A stretch of 64,000 nucleotides of DNA, from NCBI RefSeq assembly GCF_029910535.1, contig NZ_CP069362.1, positions 1,612,001-1,676,000 on the forward strand. The letters run 5' to 3'. Positions 32,035-38,019 of the stretch are shown in pieces (within the stretch, counting starts at the first letter, position 1; the number at the start of each line of letters is the position of its first letter). The notes below the pieces were generated by a model. It had not been told where the DNA came from. It made no database searches and was given only the letters and a program-made list of their open reading frames with translations. The position numbers were made by a program, and so were the translations under genes. The DNA is from Marinitoga aeolica. Lineage in GTDB: Bacteria; Thermotogota; Thermotogae; Petrotogales; Petrotogaceae.

Positions 32035-32967
32035 TTATTTTACAGAACCGAATCTGTTATATGGCCAAATTCTTAAAAATGGTCTTCCTATAATATTTCT
32101 TTCAGGGACAATACCAAAATATCTACTATCAAAACTTTCAGTAGTATTATCACCCATAAAGAAGTAGAATCCTTTAGGCAAAACAATCTTTACTCTTCCA
32201 TTTTCTTCTATAAAAATTTTATCCACATCAAGTTTTGCTAAATATTTTTCATAATATTTTGTATAGTCGAGATTTTTATTATAATATCTAAAAGCCCCTA
32301 AATCAAACATAGGTTTTCTAATTTCATTATAAGTTCTATAAATATCACTGCTATATTTTTCTGGATAAGCCATAAACTTATAATAGTCTTTTGAAGCAAA
32401 TATCCCATCAATATAATAATACTTATCTTCAAATCCTTTAGGAATTTTTCCGTTTACATAAAGTTGAGCTACGGAATTCTTTACACTAGAAGGTAACTTA
32501 TCAACATCACCATAATAGTCTATTACTTTTTGAAGCCAATATGGTGTTTTGAAATTTTTATCATTTTTAATTCTATCCCAAATTTTGCTATCTGGTATTA
32601 ATTCTAGAGTATCTCCTGGAGTACCAACCAATCTTTTTACATATTTTACATGTCCATCAAATTCTTTTGGTGCAAATAAATCCATAAATTTATCAAATGC
32701 CCCAAGCTGTTTTTGGGCAGTTTTATCAACAAAAGGTGTCCAAAATACTATTATATCTCCTACTTTTGGTTTATTGTAATCATATGTTATTTTTTCAATG
32801 AACAAACGGTCCAACACCTGTATGGTAGGCACCATTGAAGGTGTTGGAACCATCATTGTTTCGAAAACAAAAAGCCTTATTATAGTACCAAATATAACAG
32901 CATATATAAGGGCGTTGATCCATTCGTAAGTTTCTTTTTTTATTTTGTTTTTTAGGTTATTAGACAA
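32035..32967 (-). CDS. lepB: Signal peptidase I
   Basis: 310 aa membrane-bound protease removing signal peptides. One N-terminal membrane helix (about 17-36); catalytic Ser44 in PTPSMVPT and Lys111 in YVKRLVGTPGD; box E as GDNTTESFDSRYFG near the C-terminus. It is longer than Gram-positive types because of about 120 residues between the Lys motif and the GDN motif. Last gene of the ffh-rplS operon. Confidence 0.94.
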   Translation of the reverse strand: MSNNLKNKIKKETYEWINALIYAVIFGTIIRLFVFETMMVPTPSMVPTIQVLDRLFIEKITYDYNKPKVGDIIVFWTPFVDKTAQKQLGAFDKFMDLFAPKEFDGHVKYVKRLVGTPGDTLELIPDSKIWDRIKNDKNFKTPYWLQKVIDYYGDVDKLPSSVKNSVAQLYVNGKIPKGFEDKYYYIDGIFASKDYYKFMAYPEKYSSDIYRTYNEIRKPMFDLGAFRYYNKNLDYTKYYEKYLAKLDVDKIFIEENGRVKIVLPKGFYFFMGDNTTESFDSRYFGIVPERNIIGRPFLRIWPYNRFGSVK

Positions 32968-32973
32968 AAAGGA

Positions 32974-33321
32974 TCAGTCCCTTCTCTCCTTGATCTTAAT
33001 TTTACCTCTTACATTTCTTAAATAGTAAAGTTTAGCTCTTCTTACTTTACCTTTTCTAACAACCTGGATTTTTTCAATAGATGGTGAGTGTACAGGGAAT
33101 ATTCTTTCAACACCTATACCATTAGCTCCAATTCTTCTAACTGTAAAAGTTTTTCCTAATCCACCACCTCTTATTTTTATAACGATACCTTCATAAGCTT
33201 GTACTCTTTCTCTTCCACCTTCAACAACTTTAACATAAACTCTTACTGTATCACCAGGTCTAAATTCTGGAATGTCTTCTCTCATATACTCTTTTTCAAT
33301 GGCTCTAATGTATTGATCCAT
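32974..33321 (-). CDS. rplS: 50S ribosomal protein L19
   Basis: 115 aa. The family core [16 protein letters not shown] and the [18 protein letters not shown]...[10 protein letters not shown]-terminal block are complete. Sits between the TM1570-type gene and lepB in the usual trmD-rplS order. Confidence 0.98.
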
Positions 33322-33352
33322 GTTAAACCCTCCTTGAGAATATTTTTATTTA

Positions 33353-34641
<1,289 letters not shown>

Positions 34642-34670
<29 letters not shown>

Positions 34671-35208
34671 ACCATTCCAATCTCTTAACAACTATGTCTT
34701 CTTCTTCTTTATTAAACTTAATAATATTTTCTTTTATAAGAGGATAAAGAATTTCAGATTTATTAAATCTATCTATTTCTTTTTCGATGATTAATACATC
34801 GTTTGATCCTGTTTCTAAAATATCTACTATTTTTCCAATGTATGTACCATCCTCATAGAAAACCTTTTTTTCCAGTAATTGAAAATAATAGAATTCTGAA
34901 TTATCTAATTCTGGAAGAACATCTTTTGATACATAAACAACAAAATCTTTATATCTTTGTGCGGAGGATATGTTTTCAACACCGTATATTTTTACAATAT
35001 ATATTTTATTTGCTTTTCTTATAGAATCAAATTTAGCATATAAGAATCTTTTTGTTTTAGGATTATAAAGCAATACATCTATTAAATTATTAAAAACTTT
35101 TTTTTCGTTTGTAAAAGGAAAAAGTTTCAATTCTCCATTTAAACCATGAGTATTAGAAATTTTCCCTATCGCTACTCTATCTTTCAAGAGGTCATCTAAC
35201 CTCTTCAT
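34642..35208 (-). CDS. rimM: Ribosome maturation factor RimM
   Basis: 188 aa. The N-terminal RimM domain (IGKISNTHGLNGELKLFPFT) is followed by a PRC-barrel domain (about 100-180). RimM binds S19 and helps 30S head assembly. Between khpA and trmD in the conserved operon. Confidence 0.93.
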
Positions 35209-35212
35209 TCTA

Positions 35213-35443
35213 TCACCTGATTACCTTTAATAAAAATTTTGTATTCTCATCTTTTTTAGCTGCGGTTAATAGTGTGTTTATTGATTTAATTGTTCTTCCA
35301 TCTTTTCCTATTATTTGCCCTACATCATGTGGATCAACATGAATTTCAAAAACAATCTCATCATCATTTGTGTATTCTACAATTTTTACTAAATCAGGAT
35401 TTTTAACAATTCCTTTAATAATGTTCTCTAATAATTCTTTCAT
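35213..35443 (-). CDS. khpA: KH-domain RNA-binding protein KhpA
   Basis: 76 aa, one KH domain with the GxxG loop as IGKDGRTIKSINTLL. KhpA (YlqC) works with KhpB/Jag, which is also encoded in this window at 52129-52779. Lies between rpsP and rimM as in many bacteria. Confidence 0.92.
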   Translation of the reverse strand: MKELLENIIKGIVKNPDLVKIVEYTNDDEIVFEIHVDPHDVGQIIGKDGRTIKSINTLLTAAKKDENTKFLLKVIR

Positions 35444-35460
35444 TCATATGCCTCCTGGCA

Positions 35461-35736
35461 TTAAGCTTTCTTTTCAAATTTTATTTCATGAACTCTTTTC
35501 ATAACTCCAGCTTTGGATAAAATTGTTCTTGCAGTTTCTGTTGGTTGAGCGCCTTTTAAGATCCATTCTACAGCTTTTTCAATATTTACCTGGAATGTAT
35601 CATTTTCTCTTAGTGGATCATAAAAACCTAATGATTCTATGTATTTACCACTTCTCTTTTCTCTTGAATCAACTACTACAATCCTGTAAAAAGGTCTGTG
35701 TCTTCTTCCCATTCTGTTTAATCTGATTTTAACCAT
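35461..35736 (-). CDS. rpsP: 30S ribosomal protein S16
   Basis: 91 aa. [25 protein letters not shown] is the diagnostic N-terminus and LGFYDPL follows. Directly downstream of ffh. Confidence 0.98.
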
Positions 35737-35785: not shown

Positions 35786-37114
35786 TTAAAATCCAAACGG
35801 CATTTTTCCAAATAACGATTTTTTATTTTTCATCTTTTTCACTTGTTTCATCATTTTTTTCATTTGTTCATATGACTTGATCAATTTATTTATATCTTGC
35901 AAAGTAGTTCCACTACCTTTAGCGATTCTTTGTTTTCTTGAATAATTTAATATTCTTGGTTTTTTTCTTTCATCTTTTGTCATCGAATTAATTATAGCTT
36001 CTATTTTTTTCAATTCTGCTTCACTTTTGTTTACATCTATACCCTCTTTTGGAACACCTGGTATCATTTCTAAAATTTTAGATAAAGGACCAAGTTTCCT
36101 AATTTGTTTAATTTGTTCGAGAAAATCATTAAGATCAAATTTTCCTTCTAAAAACTTATTTGCTGATTCTTCAGCTTTTTCTTTGTCGATTTCAGATTCG
36201 ACTTTTTCGATAAGTGATAGAACATCGCCCATTCCTAATATTCTACTTGCGTATCTTTCAGGATAGAATAACTCTAAATCATTAACCTTTTCTCCAATAC
36301 CAACGAATTTGACAGGTTTTTGGGTAATTTGCCTGATCGATATGATAACTCCACCACGAGCATCACCATCAAGTTTTGTGACAATAAAACCATCTAGTTC
36401 AAGCCTATTATTAAATTCTTTAGCAGAATTAACAGCATCCTGACCAATCATTGCGTCTACAACCATTAAAATTTCTTCTGGTTGAGCTATCTTTTTAATT
36501 TCTTCCAATTCTTGCATCATTTGTTCATCTATATGTAGTCTTCCTGCGGTATCTAATATAACAATATCATGTAAAAGTTTTTCGGCATAGTTCATAGCTT
36601 CTTTAACTATTTTGACAGCATTTTTTCTATCACCAGTAAATACTGGAACTCCTATTTGATCACCTAATTGAACTAGTTGGTCAATAGCTGCAGGTCTGTA
36701 TGTGTCTGCTGCAACCAATAAAGGAGCTTTACCCTGTTTTTTGAAATAATTAGCTAATTTAGCAGCGTGAGTGGTTTTACCGCTTCCCTGCAACCCAACT
36801 AACATAATATAACCAGGTCTTTTTGAAATATTTAATTTAGGTTTTTCATTACCACCCATCAATTCAATTAACTCATCTCTAACAATTCTAATAAATTCTT
36901 GGTCTGGTGTTAAACTTTCTAAAACCTCTTTTCCAAGCGCTTTTTCCCTTACTTTTTCGATAAATTCTTTAACAACTTTATAGTTTACATCTGCTTCTAA
37001 TAAGGACATTTTAACAGTTCTAACTGCGTCTTTTATATTTTTTTCAGATAATTTTCCTTGCCCTTTTAATGATTTAAAAGCTTTTGCCAATTTTTTTTGG
37101 ATATTGTCAAACAT
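35786..37114 (-). CDS. ffh: Signal recognition particle protein Ffh (SRP54)
   Basis: 442 aa. N domain (1-85), GTPase G domain with GLQGSGKTTHAAKLA (G1), DTAGRLH (G3) and TKLDGDARGG (G4), then the Met-rich M domain (about 300-442) that binds signal sequences and 4.5S RNA. The ATG at 37114 is seven bases after CGGAGGTG. That ribosome binding site is the edge of a nine-copy 65-bp repeat array, so the operon's leader is very unusual. Confidence 0.97.
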   Translation of the reverse strand: MFDNIQKKLAKAFKSLKGQGKLSEKNIKDAVRTVKMSLLEADVNYKVVKEFIEKVREKALGKEVLESLTPDQEFIRIVRDELIELMGGNEKPKLNISKRPGYIMLVGLQGSGKTTHAAKLANYFKKQGKAPLLVAADTYRPAAIDQLVQLGDQIGVPVFTGDRKNAVKIVKEAMNYAEKLLHDIVILDTAGRLHIDEQMMQELEEIKKIAQPEEILMVVDAMIGQDAVNSAKEFNNRLELDGFIVTKLDGDARGGVIISIRQITQKPVKFVGIGEKVNDLELFYPERYASRILGMGDVLSLIEKVESEIDKEKAEESANKFLEGKFDLNDFLEQIKQIRKLGPLSKILEMIPGVPKEGIDVNKSEAELKKIEAIINSMTKDERKKPRILNYSRKQRIAKGSGTTLQDINKLIKSYEQMKKMMKQVKKMKNKKSLFGKMPFGF

Positions 37115-37120
37115 GTACAC

Positions 37121-37728
37121 ACCTCCGGTGAGGAATAAAGAAAATTGAAATCAAAACTAAAGATAAATAAACAACAAGTTGTTTAACCTCCGGTGAGGAA
37201 TAAAGAAAATTGAAATCAAAACTAAAGATAAATAAACAACAAGTTGTTTAACCTCCGGTGAGGAATAAAGAAAATTGAAATCAAAACTAAAGATAAATAA
37301 ACAACAAGTTGTTTAACCTCCGGTGAGGAATAAAGAAAATTGAAATCAAAACTAAAGATAAATAAACAACAAGTTGTTTAACCTCCGGTGAGGAATAAAG
37401 AAAATTGAAATCAAAACTAAAGATAAATAAACAACAAGTTGTTTAACCTCCGGTGAGGAATAAAGAAAATTGAAATCAAAACTAAAGATAAATAAACAAC
37501 AAGTTGTTTAACCTCCGGTGAGGAATAAAGAAAATTGAAATCAAAACTAAAGATAAATAAACAACAAGTTGTTTAACCTCCGGTGAGGAATAAAGAAAAT
37601 TGAAATCAAAACTAAAGATAAATAAACAACAAGTTGTTTAACCTCCGGTGAGGAATAAAGAAAATTGAAATCAAAACTAAAGATAAATAAACAACAAGTT
37701 GTTTAACCTCCGGTGAGGAATAAAGAAA
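37121..37728. repeat. Nine perfect 65-bp tandem repeats plus a 23-bp partial copy
   Basis: Units begin at 37121, 37186, 37251, 37316, 37381, 37446, 37511, 37576 and 37641; the tenth begins at 37706 and breaks after 23 bases. All full copies are identical. Each has the dyad TAAACAACAAGTTGTTTA and the small hairpin CCTCCGGTGAGG, which on the minus strand gives a GGAGG Shine-Dalgarno. The copy nearest ffh supplies the ffh ribosome binding site, so the array probably lies in the ffh leader. 65 is not a multiple of three and no long frame crosses it. Confidence 0.97.
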
Positions 37729-38019
37729 TTTATAGAATATTAGATAAAAAACAAAATATACTCAGATTATAGTAATCTGTATTTTACTACAATCTGTAGA
37801 TATTACTTCTATTCATCAATGTTTAATGAATTAACATAAAAATACAAGTCTAGTATACTATAAAAATTCTTTTTTTTCATGAATTCTATTGAACAAAATG
37901 TGAGAAGGTGGAAAATTTAAAGTTACAATTTAATTACGGTAATAGAAAGAAAAATTTAATTCATTCTCAAAGAAGAATTTACATTGAAAGGGTGTATAAT
38001 TAAAATGGGGGGTGAAATT
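37729..38019. other. Intergenic region upstream of the array
   Basis: No gene seen. Contains a minus-strand TATAAT (37766-37771) inside the dyad CAGATTA-TAG-TAATCTG (37763-37779), with a TTGTAG-like -35 at a short 15-base spacing and a further AATCTGT half-site at 37790-37796; this is my best candidate for the ffh operon promoter. On the plus strand TATAAT at 37995-38000 may serve the next gene. Confidence 0.35.

Follow-up and report, generated by a model that had tools for sequence, protein, structure and literature searches.

How did the ribosome-binding site of ffh, the first gene of an essential operon in Marinitoga aeolica (genome G000), come to be multiplied in an array of identical 65-nt units, and does the number of units matter to the genes downstream? 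The array lies in the window analysed here, a stretch of 64,000 nucleotides to which all coordinates without a locus number refer. According to a 2015 paper, tandem repeats situated between a promoter and its start codon had been studied experimentally in only two bacterial cases, both at phase-variable surface proteins (PMC4679880). At the Marinitoga locus, the multiplication of a ribosome-binding site before an essential operon can be followed clearly through stages of one, two and ten copies, and a conserved promoter lies upstream. If copy number mattered, the idea of promoter-to-start tandem repeats would extend to a housekeeping operon; if not, the locus shows how long an untranslated leader an essential mRNA tolerates, and how many idle Shine-Dalgarno (SD) sequences.

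Structure of the array and its place in the genome

The TRF program reports, at 37121-37728, a repeat of period 65 with 9.4 copies, 100% matches and a score of 1216. Direct comparison shows that nine 65-bp units are letter-for-letter identical and are followed distally by a 23-nt partial copy, TTTCTTTATTCCTCACCGGAGGT, which is probably the end of the ancestral leader. Every unit contains, in the ffh sense, the perfect 18-nt dyad TAAACAACTTGTTGTTTA together with CCTCACCGGAGG. On the side of ffh the array ends in the gene's own Shine-Dalgarno sequence, in the arrangement GGAGGT-GTGTAC-ATG, with the ATG at 37114 on the minus strand, and the last unit continues into GTGTACATG, the start of ffh; the leader holds ten SD copies. 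NCBIfam assignments give the operon order as ffh, rpsP, a KH-domain protein, rimM, trmD, an ORF without assignment, rplS and lepB. A sequence-only reading of the window had described the nine repeats and the truncated copy running outward from the ffh ribosome-binding site, the 18-base dyad in each unit, and the position of the array in the leader of this operon; all of this agrees with the TRF, direct and NCBIfam results. The features are collected in Table 1.

Table 1. Features of the ffh locus, in window coordinates
Feature	Position	Strand	Basis and remarks
Nine identical 65-nt units, ffh sense TAAACAACTTGTTGTTTATTTATCTTTAGTTTTGATTTCAATTTTCTTTATTCCTCACCGGAGGT	37121..37705	-	TRF and direct comparison; unit n at 37121+65(n-1)
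Distal 23-nt partial copy TTTCTTTATTCCTCACCGGAGGT	37706..37728	-	Direct check; alignment with congeners
Functional ffh Shine-Dalgarno inside CCTCACCGGAGGT	37121..37133	-	6 nt 5' of ATG; comparison with congeners
First of nine 18-nt perfect dyads TAAACAACTTGTTGTTTA	37168..37185	-	Repeats every 65 nt to 37688-37705
ffh, signal recognition particle protein (TIGR00959)	35786..37114	-	NCBIfam
Rest of operon: rpsP, KH protein, rimM, trmD, unassigned ORF, rplS, lepB	32035..35736	-	NCBIfam
Probable ffh promoter, ATGAAA-17-TATACT in conserved GTATACT motif	37852..37880	-	Motif conservation across family
Genus-conserved leader hairpin CAGATTGTAG...CTATAATCTG, between promoter and array	37763..37796	-	Conservation and folding prediction

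Neither the 65-nt unit nor the dyad has copies outside the array in the whole 2.44-Mb genome. The repeat background was assessed by scanning with TRF a 464-kb sample of the genome (19%), taken as stretches. The ffh array is the sole non-CRISPR, non-coding multi-copy array with near-perfect units in this sample, in which the only other near-perfect multi-copy array beyond the CRISPR-like loci is a 204-bp repeat in a coding gene. The array is far beyond chance, and because the unit is unique in the genome and similar arrays are nearly absent from the 464-kb sample, the finding is real and unusual for this genome. Use of the dyad as an operator elsewhere in the genome was considered and rejected, the one other site having 2 mismatches and lying at chance level.

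A passage in PMC6868369 names tandem arrays as a known source of assembly errors, and the copy number might accordingly be an artefact or have been misjudged by the assembler. We find this highly improbable: the genome is assembled as one contig of 2,444,241 bases with 100% completeness, the flanks of the array are unique, and the sister species (G003, see below) is independently duplicated at the same junction.

As to its class, the array has the head-to-tail, high-identity units of roughly 10-100 bp that define minisatellites or VNTR loci (65 bp x 9.4, 100%), and its SD segment differs in copy number between related genomes (10, 2 and 1), these being separate species. It shares with bacterial minisatellites perfect units of tens of bp, a lineage-specific copy number and confinement to one locus; unlike the usual minisatellite, it includes a functional SD, copied exactly, and stands immediately next to the region where an essential gene starts. 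There are no unique spacers of the CRISPR kind, since the whole 65-nt period is identical. Dispersed repeats (MITE, REP, mobile element) do not fit either, in that the unit has no copies elsewhere in the genome and no plasmid match.

Copies of the SD segment in related species

The comparison within the genus covered seven genomes, that of M. aeolica included, with one genome per species. Among them the 65-nt unit is confined to M. aeolica, and the 13-mer CCTCACCGGAGGT precedes ffh in identical form in G001, G003, G004 and G005 and in near-identical form in G006 and G002. The segment ending in the ffh Shine-Dalgarno is found in one copy in five congeners, in two copies in G003 and in ten in M. 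aeolica. Comparison of the locus in relatives had been proposed as a check in the sequence-only reading; run across the congener species, it gives one or two SD copies, and the array is therefore lineage-specific. No array abuts ffh among the 80 ffh loci listed from other bacteria, which represent distant phyla and no congener.

The nearest congener, G003, has ffh DNA 89% identical to that of M. aeolica, with 73% identity at third positions (first 700 nt). Its leader contains two copies of CCTCACCGGAGGT, exact in both and 71 nt apart; the duplicated part is exact over at least 25 nt and then continues with mismatches. The insertion junction, GGAGGT|TAA, is common to the two species. The G003 assembly is 87% complete and its ffh frame is interrupted, probably by an indel error, so that homopolymer lengths in it should be read with caution.

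Directly after the first SD of G003 there is a dyad, TAATTATA-TTTA-TATAATTA; at the matching place M. aeolica has TAAACAA-CTTG-TTGTTTA, a sequence unlike the G003 dyad. Each of the two is matched by 5/2000 dinucleotide shuffles (~0.25%), and the five other congeners, with one SD, have no dyad at this place. That symmetry was kept while sequence changed could reflect selection on structure, or a mutational process that makes or perfects palindromes. Folded as single RNA hairpins, both dyads have hardly any predicted stability at 55-65 C; neighbouring dyad copies in M. aeolica are able to pair with one another too.

These observations bear on the possibility that selection has kept the extra SD and its dyad in two species as a regulatory device, such as a standby or decoy site for ribosomes ahead of the real start, of which the nine-copy array would be an exaggerated form. 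Two SD copies at the same junction in both species despite 27% third-position divergence, the exact CCTCACCGGAGGT in both G003 copies, and dyads at equal offset with different sequences and arms of 7 and 8 nt would all agree with such selection. The persistence of two SD copies over this divergence, and a significant dyad of different sequence at the same place in each species, also count against a neutral minisatellite; were the duplication purely neutral, slippage should have removed it or its symmetry should have decayed. However, only two species are involved, the other congeners do well with one copy, and the isolated hairpins are predicted to be almost without stability at 55-65 C. Template switching, moreover, can make and repair palindromes without selection. 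We regard a selected module as unlikely, and as quite unlikely the proposal that selection holds the SD-plus-dyad module at two or more copies, with symmetry conserved while sequence changes, and that this standby or decoy device, growing by tandem expansion, would act as a translational rheostat for the operon of SRP and ribosomal-protein genes.

The units might also be tandem upstream mini-ORFs, that is, nine six-residue leader peptides which load or stall ribosomes. In every M. aeolica unit, GGAGGT is followed by 8 nt and then by TTG TTG TTT ATT TAT CTT TAG, so that each unit combines a good SD with appropriate spacing, a TTG that could serve as start, and a stop codon in frame. In G003, however, none of the codons ATG, GTG and TTG follows the extra SD at a distance that could be used; the mini-ORF is therefore not conserved, and this explanation was rejected as having very little probability.

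The probable promoter and the conserved leader

The motif GTATACT, found in the window at 37852-37858 as the -10 of ATGAAA-17-TATACT, precedes ffh in all members of the family that were examined and in most of the order; at loci L012-L035 it lies 23-75 nt 5' of the gene. Because of this conservation it looks like an ancient conserved ffh promoter. Outside the genus, the approximately 23-75 nt from the end of the motif to the start codon contain no array; within the genus the distance rises to 127-152 nt in five congeners and to 217 nt in G003, and reaches 737 nt in M. aeolica.

Strong conservation at the genus level extends over about 130 nt upstream of the -10 motif and over the stretch from there down to the leader hairpin. 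The leader from promoter to hairpin is 95% identical between M. aeolica and G003, as against 73% at ffh third positions, and the region upstream of the array is therefore constrained. The hairpin is predicted to be stable at 55-65 C. Its arms, AGATTRTAG and CTATAATCT, are found in 7/7 genus genomes, with G-U, A-U, U-A and C-G pairs at variable positions and with loops that vary in length and sequence. The conserved block upstream of the -10 box and the hairpin together occupy 37763-37990, with motifs that include TTGAGAATGAATTAAATTTTTC and ATGTTAATTCATTAAA, a pattern suggestive of a cis-regulatory region, so far undescribed, for the ffh operon. In G005 (L007) a different gene is located upstream of this region, and the synteny break falls just beyond the conserved block.

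No promoter-like site was found within the array on the ffh strand, and a promoter inside the array was rejected on these grounds. The array lies downstream of the conserved motif and hairpin, and this conservation indicates that it is almost certainly transcribed, as a 5' UTR; its assignment to the operon leader in the sequence-only reading is in line with the promoter motif upstream and the lack of a promoter-like site inside. In this respect the array resembles the Moraxella catarrhalis repeats (AGAT)n of uspA2 and (G)n of uspA1, 5'-UTR tandem repeats which are located between promoter and start codon in a transcribed leader and have been shown to affect expression (PMC4679880); for ffh, both the position and the transcription are deduced from the family-wide GTATACT upstream and the absence of anything promoter-like within. 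The uspA repeats have units of 1-4 nt and serve phase-variable surface proteins, with a demonstrated effect on expression, whereas the ffh unit is 65 nt long, carries the SD itself and belongs to an essential operon. The TAACTGA direct repeats of Beggiatoaceae are likewise tandem repeats near start codons, for which a translational role is suspected (PMC4679880), but their units are of 7 nt, at many loci and mostly without an SD, in contrast to the single ffh locus with its SD-containing 65-nt unit.

The ffh RNA motif of Alphaproteobacteria (PMC2704228) is a further comparison, in that a hairpin is present in the ffh leader there and a conserved leader hairpin in the genus studied here. Unlike that motif, the M. 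aeolica leader matches no Rfam covariance model, that of the ffh RNA motif included, even at E <= 10, evident chance matches aside; the repeat as a known RNA family was rejected for the same reason.

Origin, age and consequences of the expansion

The repeat had been thought to derive from the ffh leader itself. This stands for the last 23 nt of the unit (23/65), over which similarity to the leader can be demonstrated, and fails for the remaining 42 nt, the 5' part that includes the dyad, where similarity to the leader is not significant (127/1000 shuffles). Nor are these 42 nt significantly similar to the 5' part of the G003 unit. A plasmid search with the unit gave no match, and phage matches were only short, partial and AT-rich, to Acinetobacter phages; with nothing informative from plasmids or phages, an origin from a mobile element or phage was rejected.

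Zero differences among nine units, set against 27% third-position divergence from G003, imply that the expansion is very recent, as the sequence-only reading had supposed. By this comparison, the time since expansion or last homogenisation is a small fraction of that since the two species split. The duplication would be much older than the expansion, if it is common to both species.

We think it rather probable that the array is a young 5'-UTR minisatellite of the ffh operon, which grew from an older SD duplication and is tolerated in the leader. The SD-containing leader segment, and with it a short dyad lying just 3' of the SD, would have been duplicated before the split of M. aeolica and G003; alternatively, the duplication may have arisen twice at the same spot, once per species. 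In M. aeolica the 65-nt unit would then have been expanded and homogenised, very recently, by slippage or unequal recombination, the dyads and the long identical units favouring misalignment. RNA polymerase presumably starts at the conserved promoter near 37852, so that the leader hairpin and the whole array would be transcribed, and ffh translation would begin from the last SD, whose sequence is unchanged and for which the predicted accessibility is independent of copy number. The additional SDs are probably tolerated; any effects, through binding of 30S at non-productive sites or through mRNA stability, would be modest at most.

The sequence-only reading had also raised the possibility that the number of units adjusts how strongly ffh and the ribosomal genes are expressed, in the manner of the AGAT repeats of uspA2, whose copy number in the 5' UTR affects expression (PMC4679880). 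The array indeed lies between promoter and start codon, and its identical units are expected to be mutable. On the other hand, known phase-variable 5'-UTR repeats belong to surface proteins and not to essential operons. When leaders of 0 to 12 units were folded at 37, 55 and 65 C, the predicted unpaired probability of the final SD was 0.19-0.32 and flat after the first unit (1-12 copies) at all three temperatures, and accessibility of the start codon was likewise flat. Prediction thus gives no folding-based reason for tuning; an RNA-folding rheostat was rejected, and tuning by copy number, left unsupported, appears very doubtful to us.

Other repeats in the same genome include two CRISPR-like arrays (L149 16277-19911 and L150 18448-19865), with different repeats, GTTTCCATACCTCATAGGTAGATTAAAAAC and ATTTACATTCCAATATGGATGATTAAAAAC, neither of which is the 65-nt unit. 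In L149, repeat-plus-spacer blocks are themselves duplicated, giving 100% identical periods of 67, 68 and 204 bp. At L163 11115-14813, a 1232-aa ORF resembling a polysaccharide-export-type protein contains an in-frame 204-bp repeat with 5.1 copies of 98% identity; this is a further case of recent tandem expansion in the genome, here within coding DNA.
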